Assembly (NCBI GenBank): GCA_021648485.1
Contig: JAKISS010000008.1
Span: forward strand, 1 to 64,000
Length of the DNA: 64,000 bases
From: Gammaproteobacteria bacterium
GTDB lineage: Bacteria; Pseudomonadota; Gammaproteobacteria; SZUA-152
Direction of reading: 5' to 3'
Part shown: positions 45,499 through 53,795 of the stretch, one piece after another
Numbering within the stretch: position 1 is the first letter of the stretch
Layout of the letters: each line of letters begins with the position of its first letter
Made by a program: the position numbers and the translations under genes
Notes under the pieces: generated by a model
What the model was told of the DNA's origin: nothing
Database searches by the model: none
What the model saw: only the letters and a program-made list of their open reading frames with translations

Positions 45499-46182
45499 TG
45501 TACACCCCAGTTAAGGATAATTATCTTAACTGAGGAAAGTAAAAATGACGCCACGAAAGAAATATTCGAAAGAATTTAAATTGGATGCAGTGAGTCTGGT
45601 AACAGATCAGGGCTATCCACGGACAGAAGCGGCGAGAAGCCTGGATATCAATGCTGGGTCGCTGGGTAAAGGAGCAGCAGGCAGATGATAGTCAGGCGTT
45701 TCGAGGGAATGGCAAGCTGACACCGGAGTTGGAAGAAATCAAGAAACTCAGAGGCCAGGTGAAACGCTTGCAGATGGAGAACGACATCTTAAAAAAAGCG
45801 ACGGTATTCTTTGCAGCAGAAACGAAATGAAATATTCGTTCATCACCCAGCATAAGAATACCTGGCCTGTCAGCCTGCAGTGCAGGGTATTGAGTGTGAA
45901 TCGTAGTGATTACTATCACTATCAGGCAAAAATGCTCAATCGACCGGATGACTCAGAGCATCAGGAAATGATTGACTGGGTAAAAGATATTGCTGAGAGT
46001 TCCAAGTATAGCTGCGGCAGCCGTCGGATGAAAAAGGCCTTGTATGCATCGGGATATCCTGTCAGTCGCAACAAGGCAAGAAAGCTGATGAAAGAAGCCA
46101 ATGTAAAGGCACGACAGCGCAAGAAGTTCAAAGTGACGACCAACAGCAATCACAAGCACCCGGTGTTTGATAATCTACGGTT
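45499..46182 (+). mobile_element. Truncated, inactivated IS3-family insertion sequence
   Basis: Terminal-type TGTACACCCCAGTTAAGGATAATTATCTTAACTG, frameshifted orfA (45545-45830), orfB N-terminus (45827-) lacking the DDE core. Confidence 0.85.
45545..45830 (+). pseudogene. IS3-family transposase orfA, frameshifted
   Basis: MTPRKKYSKEFKLDAVSLVTDQGYPRTEAARSLDIN then -1/+2 shift into LGRWVKEQQADDSQAFRGNGKLTPELEEIKKLRGQVKRLQMENDILKKATVFFA. Confidence 0.85.
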
Positions 46183-46195
46183 TGGGCCAGGGTAA
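45827..46195 (+). pseudogene. IS3-family transposase orfB, truncated before the integrase core
   Basis: SVNRSDYYHYQ...YGSRR-like CGSRRMKKALYASGYPVSRNKARKLMKEANVKARQRKKFKVTTNSNHKHPVFDN then out of homology. Confidence 0.85.
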
Positions 46196-50292: not shown

Positions 50293-51453
50293 ATGATGCG
50301 TATACAAACAGGATTAACCTTGAGCATATTGGCTGTCTCGGGCATTACGTTGATGGGAACCGCTCAGGCCATACCGTCATTTGCGGCTAAATACGAAAAA
50401 AATTGTTCATACTGCCATAACGCATGGCCCCAGTTGAATAACAAAGGCCGAAATTTTAAAGAACGAGGTTATCGTCTTAAGGAAGACTTGAAGATAGAAG
50501 GTAAAACCACTCCTTATTATGAAGCAGGTAATTTTCCAATTAGTGGCCTGGTTATCTCACGCCCATATGATAAAGCAGACAGTGGTGACCGTATGGTACG
50601 TGCAATTAACGGGGTAGCGTTGTTTATTGCCGGCAATATGGGTAAAAACGTTTCCGTATTCACTCAAATTGAAGCTGAAGACGAAGCTGATTTTTCACCA
50701 GAAGTGGGTAGCACTGCGTTGTCTTATCGATTCAACAAAGAGGCCGCTCTGCAAATGACCTGGAGTCAGGCCAATTGGGCCGATGGCTATGGCTTCCTGG
50801 GCAATCATTTCCGATTAACCCGTGGCAGTGTGGGCGTGATTGATCAAAATTTTGGTGGCGCTGACAATGGTGGAAAATTACGCTCCAAACGCCAAAATGT
50901 GGCCGTAACAGGCCGTGTTGCCAATGACAAATTATTTTATAACATTGGTCTCGGTGGTGTAGCAGATAATGTTGAAGGTGTATCCGGCAATGACCCCGGA
51001 AACGGTACCAGCATGAATGCCCGTGTTGCCTTTGATATGAAAAAGAACATCATGGTGGGCGGCTATGTCCTCGATGGTAAGTCTGGCAACATGAATTTTA
51101 ATCGCATGGCAATCGATACCCAGGCTGACCTGAAAGATATCCGCATTCAGGCTGCTTATGTCATGGCTGAGGACGATGTAACGGGGGGAACAGATAAAAA
51201 CAATGCATTTTCCATTCAGGCTTATAACGTTATGAAAACCAAAAAAGGCAAGCCTACCTGGGTGCAGTTAGTACGTTTGGACAACTATGAAAGAAATGAT
51301 GGTACCCATGAATACAACGAGCTGACTTTAAACGTTACCCATTATCTGGCACAAAACATTAAAGCCTATATCGAGTACTGGGATCGCTTTGATACACCAA
51401 CGGGTGTGGATAAAGATAATCGTTTAACTCTTCAGCTCTATGTTGGCCTGTAG
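50293..51453 (+). CDS. Cyc2-like fused monoheme cytochrome c / outer-membrane beta-barrel (porin)
   Basis: Signal peptide; IPSFAAKYEKNCSYCHNAWPQLNNKGRNFKERGYRLKED (CxxCH followed by PxLNxxGRxFKxxGY); alternating hydrophobic beta-strand-like sequence to C-terminal LQLYVGL; AAGGAG RBS. Confidence 0.65.
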   Translation: MMRIQTGLTLSILAVSGITLMGTAQAIPSFAAKYEKNCSYCHNAWPQLNNKGRNFKERGYRLKEDLKIEGKTTPYYEAGNFPISGLVISRPYDKADSGDRMVRAINGVALFIAGNMGKNVSVFTQIEAEDEADFSPEVGSTALSYRFNKEAALQMTWSQANWADGYGFLGNHFRLTRGSVGVIDQNFGGADNGGKLRSKRQNVAVTGRVANDKLFYNIGLGGVADNVEGVSGNDPGNGTSMNARVAFDMKKNIMVGGYVLDGKSGNMNFNRMAIDTQADLKDIRIQAAYVMAEDDVTGGTDKNNAFSIQAYNVMKTKKGKPTWVQLVRLDNYERNDGTHEYNELTLNVTHYLAQNIKAYIEYWDRFDTPTGVDKDNRLTLQLYVGL

Positions 51454-51479
51454 TTTCATTTAGGAATATTTAAAACAAT

Positions 51480-51510
51480 GAAAGCCAGATGAATTTTTCG
51501 TCTGGCTTTC
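51480..51510. terminator. Stem-loop between cytochrome-porin gene and downstream cytochrome c
   Basis: GAAAGCCAGATGAATTTTTCGTCTGGCTTTC. Confidence 0.65.
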
Positions 51511-51568
51511 ACTTGTTTTAAACAATATTTTCTAACCGGTAATATTTTGTAACAACAGTGAGCCAATT

Positions 51569-51904
51569 ATGAAACAGAATATATTTATAAAATGGAATGT
51601 ATTACTATATTTTCTGACGATTTTCACTGCTGCATTTCTGCTCCCAATAAATACAGTTATGGCCACAGCACCAAACAAAATAAAAATTATGGCTGATGCC
51701 TGTTTAACATGTCATGGGCCAAACGGATCAGGATCAGGAAAAATCCCCGAACTGAAAGGATTGGAAAAAAGCGATATCACCGAAAGTTTATTTGGCTTTA
51801 AATCAGGTGATGAAAAATCCACCATCATGGGGCGATACGCTAAAGCACTGAGTGATAATGAGATTAATCTGCTGGGTGAATATTTTTCAACTTTAGATAA
51901 ATAA
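51569..51904 (+). CDS. Monoheme class I cytochrome c, FccA-like
   Basis: Signal peptide; MADACLTCHGPNGSGSGKIPELKGL, single CxxCH; upstream of fccB-like gene. Confidence 0.85.
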   Translation: MKQNIFIKWNVLLYFLTIFTAAFLLPINTVMATAPNKIKIMADACLTCHGPNGSGSGKIPELKGLEKSDITESLFGFKSGDEKSTIMGRYAKALSDNEINLLGEYFSTLDK

Positions 51905-51918
51905 TCAGGGGCGATGTA

Positions 51919-53211
51919 ATGAACCAGCTTGATCGCAGAACATTTATCAAACTACTGGGGGCCGCTGGTGTCATTTCCTCAGCCAATAGTCTTGTTTTGC
52001 CAGGCAGCGCCACAGCAGAAGCCAACGCTCGCGTGGTGGTGGTGGGCGGCGGCTTTGGTGGTGCAACCTGTGCCAACTACCTGCGTCAGTATGATTCCAG
52101 CCTGAATGTGACGTTGATTGAGCCAAATGTTCAGTTTGTTACCTGCCCATTCAGCAATACTGTATTGGCAGGGATGAAATCTATAAACTTCATTACTCAC
52201 AATTACGATGGGCTGCGTAAAAATCACGGCGTTAATGTCATGCATGATATGGTGATCTCAATTGATGCCACGGCGAAAAAAATTAAACTAAAAAGCGGTA
52301 AAACACTTGTCTATGATCGTTTGGTCGTCTCTCCAGGAATTTCTTTTAACTGGCATGAAATCGAGGGGGCAAGTGCAGAAAACAGTAAAATAATGCCCCA
52401 TGCATGGAAGGCCGGCACACAAACTATTTTGTTGCGAAAACAATTAGAGGCAATGAAGGATGGCGGCACAGTCATTATTGCATCACCTCGTAAACCTTTT
52501 CGCGCCCCTCCTGCCCCCTATGAGCGCGCCAGCCTGATCGCGTACTATCTTAAAAAAACCAAACCCTCTTCGAAAATTTTACTGATTGATTCCAGTGGTG
52601 ACTCTGAAGAACTGGCCATGTTCCGTAAGGGCTGGGAAAAACTCTACAAGGGTATAATTGAATGGGTCGATGGCTCTGAGCAAGGTGAGATTGTATCCGC
52701 AGATACCAAGGCATTATCACTGACCGGACACACAATAGGCACTCTTAAAGGCGATGTTGTTAATTTGATTCCACCACAACACGCGGGAGAGATTGCACGG
52801 GTTGCTGGCCTGGCGGATGAATCAGGTTGGTGCCCGGTAAACCCGAAAAATTTTGCGTCCACATTACAAAAAAATATTCATGTGATTGGTGATGCTTGCA
52901 TTGCGGAGCCTATGCAAAAAACAGGGCACAGCGCCAATACCCAGGGTAAAATTTGTGCAGCTGCTATCGTGGTTGAATTGAATGGAGGCACCATGCCGGA
53001 TGTCACCTACAGCACCGGCATCTACAGTTTTCTCAATCCCAAATATGCCCTTTCATCTGCGAGAGTGTACCGCTTGAAAAATGGAAAATTGAAACAGGTT
53101 GCGGGTGGTTTGAGTGCTAAAAAGGCATCTCGAAAAACACGACTCAAAGAGGCCAGGTTTGCATCGGGTTGGTATAAGGGGATTACCATGGATACATTTG
53201 GAAAAACCTGA
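51919..53211 (+). CDS. fccB: Flavocytochrome c sulfide dehydrogenase flavoprotein subunit (FccB/SoxF family)
   Basis: Tat motif DRRTFIKLLGAAG; VVVGGGFGGATCANYLR; FVTCPFSNTVLAG; VIGDACIAEPMQKTGHSANTQGKICA. Confidence 0.9.
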   Translation: MNQLDRRTFIKLLGAAGVISSANSLVLPGSATAEANARVVVVGGGFGGATCANYLRQYDSSLNVTLIEPNVQFVTCPFSNTVLAGMKSINFITHNYDGLRKNHGVNVMHDMVISIDATAKKIKLKSGKTLVYDRLVVSPGISFNWHEIEGASAENSKIMPHAWKAGTQTILLRKQLEAMKDGGTVIIASPRKPFRAPPAPYERASLIAYYLKKTKPSSKILLIDSSGDSEELAMFRKGWEKLYKGIIEWVDGSEQGEIVSADTKALSLTGHTIGTLKGDVVNLIPPQHAGEIARVAGLADESGWCPVNPKNFASTLQKNIHVIGDACIAEPMQKTGHSANTQGKICAAAIVVELNGGTMPDVTYSTGIYSFLNPKYALSSARVYRLKNGKLKQVAGGLSAKKASRKTRLKEARFASGWYKGITMDTFGKT

Positions 53212-53249
53212 CTCTGCTATGTTTGACCAAATTACAATTCGGCAATTTT

Positions 53250-53795
53250 ATGCGTAAATGGCTAAAGGGAGTTTCTCTGTTTGTCATTACCGGCACACTA
53301 ATTGCGGGAGTTTTACTCGCTACGGGTTTTCATGGTGCATTAAATGCAACCAATACTGAATCATTTTGTATTTCCTGCCATGAAATGGGTATTGCTTACG
53401 AAGAATATAAAGATACGGTACATTATAGAAACCGTACTGGCGTGCGGACAACTTGTTCGGATTGTCATGTGCCACGGGATTTTGGCCCCAAGATGGTTGC
53501 TAAAATTCGTGCGGCCAAGGATGTCTGGCATCACCTTATTGGCACCATCGACAGTATGGAAAAATATGAAAACTATCGGCTGATAATGGCTAAAACGGTG
53601 TGGCAAAACATGAAAGAAACGGATTCTCGTGAGTGCCGTGTTTGTCATACTGTGGCATCCATGGACTTTGAAGAGCAGCAAGGGCGTGCCGCACGAAAAC
53701 ATAAAAAGATGACAGAAAAAGGTCAGACCTGTATCGATTGCCACAAAGGCGTGGCACACGAATTACCTGAAGATTTTGATGAAGAAGATGAATAG
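53250..53795 (+). CDS. NapC/NirT-family tetraheme cytochrome c
   Basis: N-terminal TM anchor; CISCH, CSDCH, CRVCH, CIDCH; ESFCISCHEMG and CSDCHVPRDFGPKMVAKIRAAKDVWHHLIGT. Confidence 0.92.
   Translation: MRKWLKGVSLFVITGTLIAGVLLATGFHGALNATNTESFCISCHEMGIAYEEYKDTVHYRNRTGVRTTCSDCHVPRDFGPKMVAKIRAAKDVWHHLIGTIDSMEKYENYRLIMAKTVWQNMKETDSRECRVCHTVASMDFEEQQGRAARKHKKMTEKGQTCIDCHKGVAHELPEDFDEEDE

Follow-up and report, generated by a model that had tools for sequence, protein, structure and literature searches.

What does an FccAB-type flavocytochrome do beside a predicted cytochrome-porin of the outer membrane? The question is raised by four neighbouring genes in a 64,000-nucleotide stretch of a gammaproteobacterial genome (contig JAKISS010000008.1, positions 1 to 64,000), hereafter the window. 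A sequence-only reading of this DNA had described consecutive same-strand genes for a porin, a monoheme cytochrome, a Tat-type FccB and a tetraheme NapC/NirT cytochrome, and the open reading frames, motifs and family matches agree with that description: four reading frames lie at the positions in Table 1, all on the forward strand, with 1, 1, 0 and 4 CxxCH motifs in gene order. Our answer, which we put forward tentatively and at somewhat below an even chance, is that they encode an undescribed respiratory module, found in two bacterial classes, in which a sulfide dehydrogenase without its disulfide would act as a flavin/heme converter between a single-heme porin and quinone. If true, this would be a new way to take up extracellular electrons or to use a new small donor.

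Table 1 Features of the porin-fccA-fccB-napC locus, in window coordinates.
Feature	Position	Strand	Basis
Cyc2-like cytochrome-porin (386 aa) with signal peptide, one CxxCH and predicted 15-16-strand barrel	50293..51453	+	ORF, relatives, profile matches, models, Foldseek
Heme-binding CSYCH of porin, within AIPSFAAKYEKNCSYCHNAWPQL	50404..50418	+	Sequence; invariant among 12 homologues
Intergenic hairpin, porin/fccA	51479..51511	+	Folding, covariation; equivalents in L033, L034, L036-L038, L041-L043
FccA-type monoheme cytochrome c, 111 aa	51569..51904	+	Best PDB match 5n1t_B; family alignment
FccB-like flavoprotein (430 aa) with Tat signal; retains the covalent-FAD cysteine, lacks the redox disulfide	51919..53211	+	
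FccB Cys76 codon (= A. vinosum FccB Cys42, FAD attachment): kept	52144..52146	+	Alignment
FccB Ala196 codon (= A. vinosum FccB Cys161): catalytic cysteine lost	52504..52506	+	Alignment
FccB Ile368 codon (= A. vinosum FccB Cys337): catalytic cysteine lost	53020..53022	+	Alignment
NapC/NirT tetraheme cytochrome, N-terminal membrane anchor	53250..53795 (ATG); alternative TTG start 53223	+	Family match, hydrophobic N-terminus

The four-gene block is a real unit. A porin-based scan of genome contigs returned 11 loci (L033-L043), and the order porin-fccA-fccB-napC is retained in ten genomes of Gammaproteobacteria and alphaproteobacterial Emcibacter, a recurrence across two classes that bears out the expected co-occurrence of porin, FccAB and NapC. 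Order and orientation are as in the window in L033-L038 (Gammaproteobacteria) and in L041 and L043 (Emcibacter); L042 has porin, fccA and fccB without napC on a contig that continues beyond, and L039 and L040 stop at contig edges. A diverged copy (L135) in a different genus of the window's family encodes an FccB that is 62% identical and a porin truncated by the contig end. Every cluster genome for which the records give a name is a metagenome assembly. On one side, the window and L033-L037 share an ABC-F protein and a DEAD-box helicase that carries a DbpA domain (seen only where the contig reaches that far), and on the opposite side AlgH and a GGDEF protein; the flanking genes are different in L038, the Emcibacter loci and L042. 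Upstream of the ABC-F gene, the window also carries a short remnant of an HTH_21-domain transposase (45827-46195) resembling an IS3-type OrfB fragment. Across all four genes dN/dS is 0.08-0.21, indicating purifying selection, and this, together with the retention of the block across two classes, excludes chance grouping.

Spacing within the block is uneven, with gaps, in the nine four-gene loci measured, of 10-19 bp between fccA and fccB, 27-94 bp between fccB and napC, and 88-472 bp between porin and fccA. A stem-loop had been thought to separate the porin from the other three genes, and both folding (-19.8 kcal/mol, z=-7.2) and covariation confirm it: among six congeners, 9 of the 17 predicted pairs show a compensated double change. 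Hairpins also fold at the equivalent site in L041, L042 and L043, and the structure in L035 differs. In all, eight other loci retain this covarying hairpin with altered sequence. Possible roles are weak termination of transcription and protection of the porin mRNA; a promoter scan gave no more sites than shuffled sequences did.

Sequence searches of the porin against PDB, Pfam and NCBIfam returned nothing above cut-off, and we therefore turned to structure models and profile comparison. Full-length relatives occur in 9 of the 369 genomes sampled from the class. Profile comparison linked the porin to a group of relatives outside the cluster (L105-L111) at 100% probability and, over its full length (350 columns), to proteins with an AVPSFARQTG-type motif at 99.1%, this Cyc2-like comparison set having been picked by motif; the match to a third group was confined to the heme domain. 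In a tree of 52 Cyc2-like proteins, whose barrels align poorly and whose deeper branches are not reliable, the cluster porins and L105-L111 form a single clade with support of 100. The published Cyc2 motif is AXPXFAR[Q/K][T/Y] directly before CxxCH (PMC8406198); L105, L106 and L109 in the same clade match it exactly, and the window porin (AIPSFAAKY) differs at one defined position, R to A. It also has a single heme site, PXL four residues past CxxCH (CSYCHNAWPQL) and a length above the 365 aa taken as the minimum for such proteins. Two AlphaFold models of the family, built from shallow alignments of the window and related-locus proteins only, have 15-16 strands and leave the heme domain unresolved; the first had a mean pLDDT of 49, and the second, remade with an Emcibacter orthologue placed first, reached 58. 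Foldseek matched them at the top almost exclusively to 16-strand porins, including OmpC, OmpF, Omp32 and OprP. The outcomes that would have counted against the first proposal did not occur: a barrel is predicted, the profile similarity to Cyc2-like proteins is full-length, and the porin recurs beside fccAB and napC. On these comparisons, the window porin is one of a compact group of Cyc2-like cytochrome-porins that form a single clade, and Fe(II) oxidation is a putative function only.

The neighbours of porin relatives outside the cluster are consistent with an electron-transfer role. None of L105-L111 has an adjoining fccB, and five of the seven adjoin a different soluble c-type cytochrome, with three hemes in L105, L106 and L109, two in L107 and one in L108. 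The triheme cytochromes, which follow the porin (L105:1723-2541, L106:6649-7449, L109:7770-8519), are of one family, a second partner type for the same porin clade in place of fccAB-napC. Within the barrel, an acidic EAEDE stretch (porin residues 127-131, window 50671-50685) is near-invariant among cluster porins, partly retained in the sister group and absent from the other Cyc2-like proteins compared; it could be a cation site, for example for Fe(II). The window's genome encodes two further Cyc2-like cytochrome-porins, on its contigs C69 (L002:1456-2727, 424 aa) and C9 (L003:1450-3012, 521 aa), which belong to branches of the Cyc2-like tree other than that of the cluster porins and bring the host total to three.

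The chief new finding lies in the flavoprotein. FccB has an N-terminal RR signal of the Tat type, the FCSD_central and FCSD-flav_bind domains, and matches to PDB entries 5n1t, 1fcd and 3vrd at E <= 1e-109; for the family of the 111-aa cytochrome, the best match is chain B of 5n1t, which is that enzyme's heme subunit. An alignment with the A. vinosum and Thioalkalivibrio structures shows that the window FccB keeps Cys42 (covalent FAD), Glu167 and Trp391. In these enzymes Cys161 and Cys337 form the flavin-adjacent disulfide that binds and oxidises sulfide (PMC3504083, PMC12010331). Cys161 is replaced by Ala and Cys337 by Ile in all 12 cluster FccB rows (two of them an identical protein) and in none of 31 other FccBs, from a sampling that covered the best matches in 369 genomes of the class; the FAD-binding cysteine is retained in 12 of 12. 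All 12 cysteine-less rows fall in a single clade (support 99), and one origin therefore suffices.

Other changes accompany the lost cysteines. Among 129 columns conserved in ordinary FccBs, the cluster clade has lost 10, including 161, 164, 335, 336 and 337, whereas a control FccB clade lost 4 of 150, with none at these five positions. The substitutions in the active-site loops are uniform (C161A, G164A, T336S/G, C337I), and the pattern looks like a remodelled active site and not decay. Random decay is ruled out by the uniform residues, a dN/dS of about 0.09 and the single clade, and a cysteine-less FccB as the common type is ruled out in these samples by the 31 of 31 others that are intact. 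The pattern FRAPPA..YER occurred in 1 of 399 genomes of the phylum and 1 of 289 of the Emcibacter class, the single hit being the query genome both times. In the window's order, 8 of 24 genomes had it, chiefly at loci already known. No FccB besides the cluster protein was found in the window's genome, nor in five of the six cluster genomes that were searched. In the genome carrying L042, an ordinary FccAB pair with its catalytic cysteines intact (L134) occurs alongside the cluster; its FccB is among the 31 compared, and the two types thus coexist. No report of a disulfide-less FccB came up in the open-access literature.

With covalent FAD and heme partner kept and the sulfide-binding disulfide lost, the cluster FccB is, judged by its residues, not a sulfide dehydrogenase of known type, and the window protein has probably acquired a new role. 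Of the two options in the sequence-only reading, a repurposed FccB is upheld by the loss of both catalytic cysteines throughout the clade, and oxidation of sulfide or polysulfide by known FCSD chemistry finds no support. Metagenome surveys would nonetheless tally the cluster FccB as a sulfide dehydrogenase despite its absent sulfide site, and the Cys161Ala/Cys337Ile signature offers a simple marker of the new type.

The last gene encodes a Cytochrom_NNT protein (PF03264, E=1e-69, full-length family match) with a hydrophobic N-terminus and four CxxCH hemes that are invariant in the family alignment. NapC/NirT proteins are classically quinol dehydrogenases, and quinol/quinone exchange is a putative function here. 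As for the host, its genome is 86% complete and has genes for RuBisCO, for SoxB (next to one for a cytochrome that we take to be SoxA-like) and for a separate canonical SQR closely related to the crystallised SQR 3sz0; a search of this genome for DsrA gave nothing above cut-off. Such a gene complement most likely belongs to a sulfur-oxidising autotroph independent of FccB for sulfide.

We give an even chance to the reading that the four genes form an outer membrane-to-quinone route, with FccAB repurposed as a flavin/heme relay or for another substrate. The heme of the Cyc2-like porin in the outer membrane would exchange electrons with a reductant entering the pore (at best guess Fe(II)), an FccA-FccB flavocytochrome in the periplasm would pass them on, and the NapC-type tetraheme cytochrome of the inner membrane would join the route to the quinone pool. 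The layout from outer membrane through periplasm to quinone, as first proposed from the sequence, is supported as a reading; we infer the protein locations, the electron transfer between the parts, the donor and the direction. A precedent exists in Sideroxydans, in which the monoheme MtoD and the tetraheme NapC-family CymA/ImoA have been proposed to link an outer-membrane iron oxidase to the quinone pool (PMC12442390). Several points count against this reading: a single-heme porin has no need of a flavoprotein as its next carrier, napC is missing in L042, and confidence in the porin models is modest. Because Cyc2PV-1 has a measured potential of +208 mV (PMC8406198), quinone reduction from such a heme would be uphill, and the route would therefore need a lower porin potential, outward flow or drive from the proton gradient.

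Outward flow is the alternative that fares best, though we consider it unlikely. NapC would oxidise quinol and pass electrons through FccAB to the porin or a periplasmic acceptor, reducing an external or soluble oxidant. The classical activity of the NapC/NirT family favours this direction, and flavocytochromes are able to act as reductases; in Sideroxydans, ImoA oxidises quinol according to Jain et al. 2022, as cited in PMC12442390. Set against this, the relatives of the porin are Cyc2-type proteins that accept electrons, a single heme seems scant for export, and the host, with RuBisCO and SoxB, has genes that lithoautotrophs carry.

It is improbable, in our estimate, that FccAB still oxidises sulfide or polysulfide by a mechanism that needs no disulfide, with sulfide species entering via the porin. 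Retention of the fold, of the FAD-binding cysteine, of Glu167 in the active site and of the heme subunit would suit such an activity, as would a host that probably oxidises sulfur (SoxB, SQR), but both sulfide-binding cysteines are absent in every member, neighbouring residues are altered too, and single Cys-to-Ser changes abolish activity in the related SQR (PMC3504083). The host, moreover, has its normal SQR. Slightly more doubtful still is a different small substrate, admitted by the porin and oxidised or reduced by FccAB, with NapC as quinone partner and the porin heme secondary. Loss of the sulfide site with flavin and heme retained is the pattern that would be expected of relay and new substrate alike; the uniform loop remodelling suits a new pocket, and the tightest spacing in the block is that of the FccAB and NapC genes (gaps of 10-94 bp), but the porin heme is conserved, and porin relatives are found with cytochromes and without FccB. 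A chance neighbourhood of unrelated genes, or decay of FccB, is very improbable, since the hairpin, the wide gap behind the porin and the napC-less L042 are outweighed by a block kept in two classes despite different flanks, by low dN/dS in every gene and by residue changes that are uniform and not random.

We found no paper in the open-access literature combining Cyc2, fccB and NapC. The path beyond the outer membrane is little known in neutrophilic Cyc2 users (PMC8406198), and the route proposed for Tenderia electrophaga, which has Cyc2, mentions neither NapC nor a flavocytochrome; the porin-FccAB-NapC block is a compact proposal of a complete chain, testable with four genes. Like Cyc2 of A. 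ferrooxidans, Cyc2PV-1 of Mariprofundus and Cyt572 of Leptospirillum, the window porin has a signal peptide, a single heme, a predicted 16-strand-type barrel and PXL after CxxCH; the stretch before CxxCH is of AXPXFAR type but for the R-to-A change. It is shorter (386 aa versus mostly at least 400), falls with its relatives in a separate, compact clade when the Cyc2-like proteins are compared, and is partnered by FccAB and NapC. The flavocytochrome resembles those of A. vinosum (1fcd), T. tepidum (3vrd) and Thioalkalivibrio paradoxus (5n1t) in the FccA-FccB pairing, Tat export, FAD cysteine, Glu167, Trp391 and all three FCSD domains, and the cluster clade differs from them in having Ala and Ile for the disulfide cysteines. 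With NapC/NirT proteins, including CymA/ImoA of iron oxidisers, the last gene product shares the N-terminal anchor, four CxxCH and a full-length family match, but its gene adjoins FccAB and a cytochrome-porin and not a nitrate, nitrite or TMAO reductase. The Sideroxydans Mto pathway (MtoAB, MtoD, CymA/ImoA) is similar in design, with an outer-membrane oxidase, a monoheme carrier and a NapC-family protein proposed to lead to the quinone pool; that pathway has no flavocytochrome and uses a multiheme MtoA with a separate MtoB porin.
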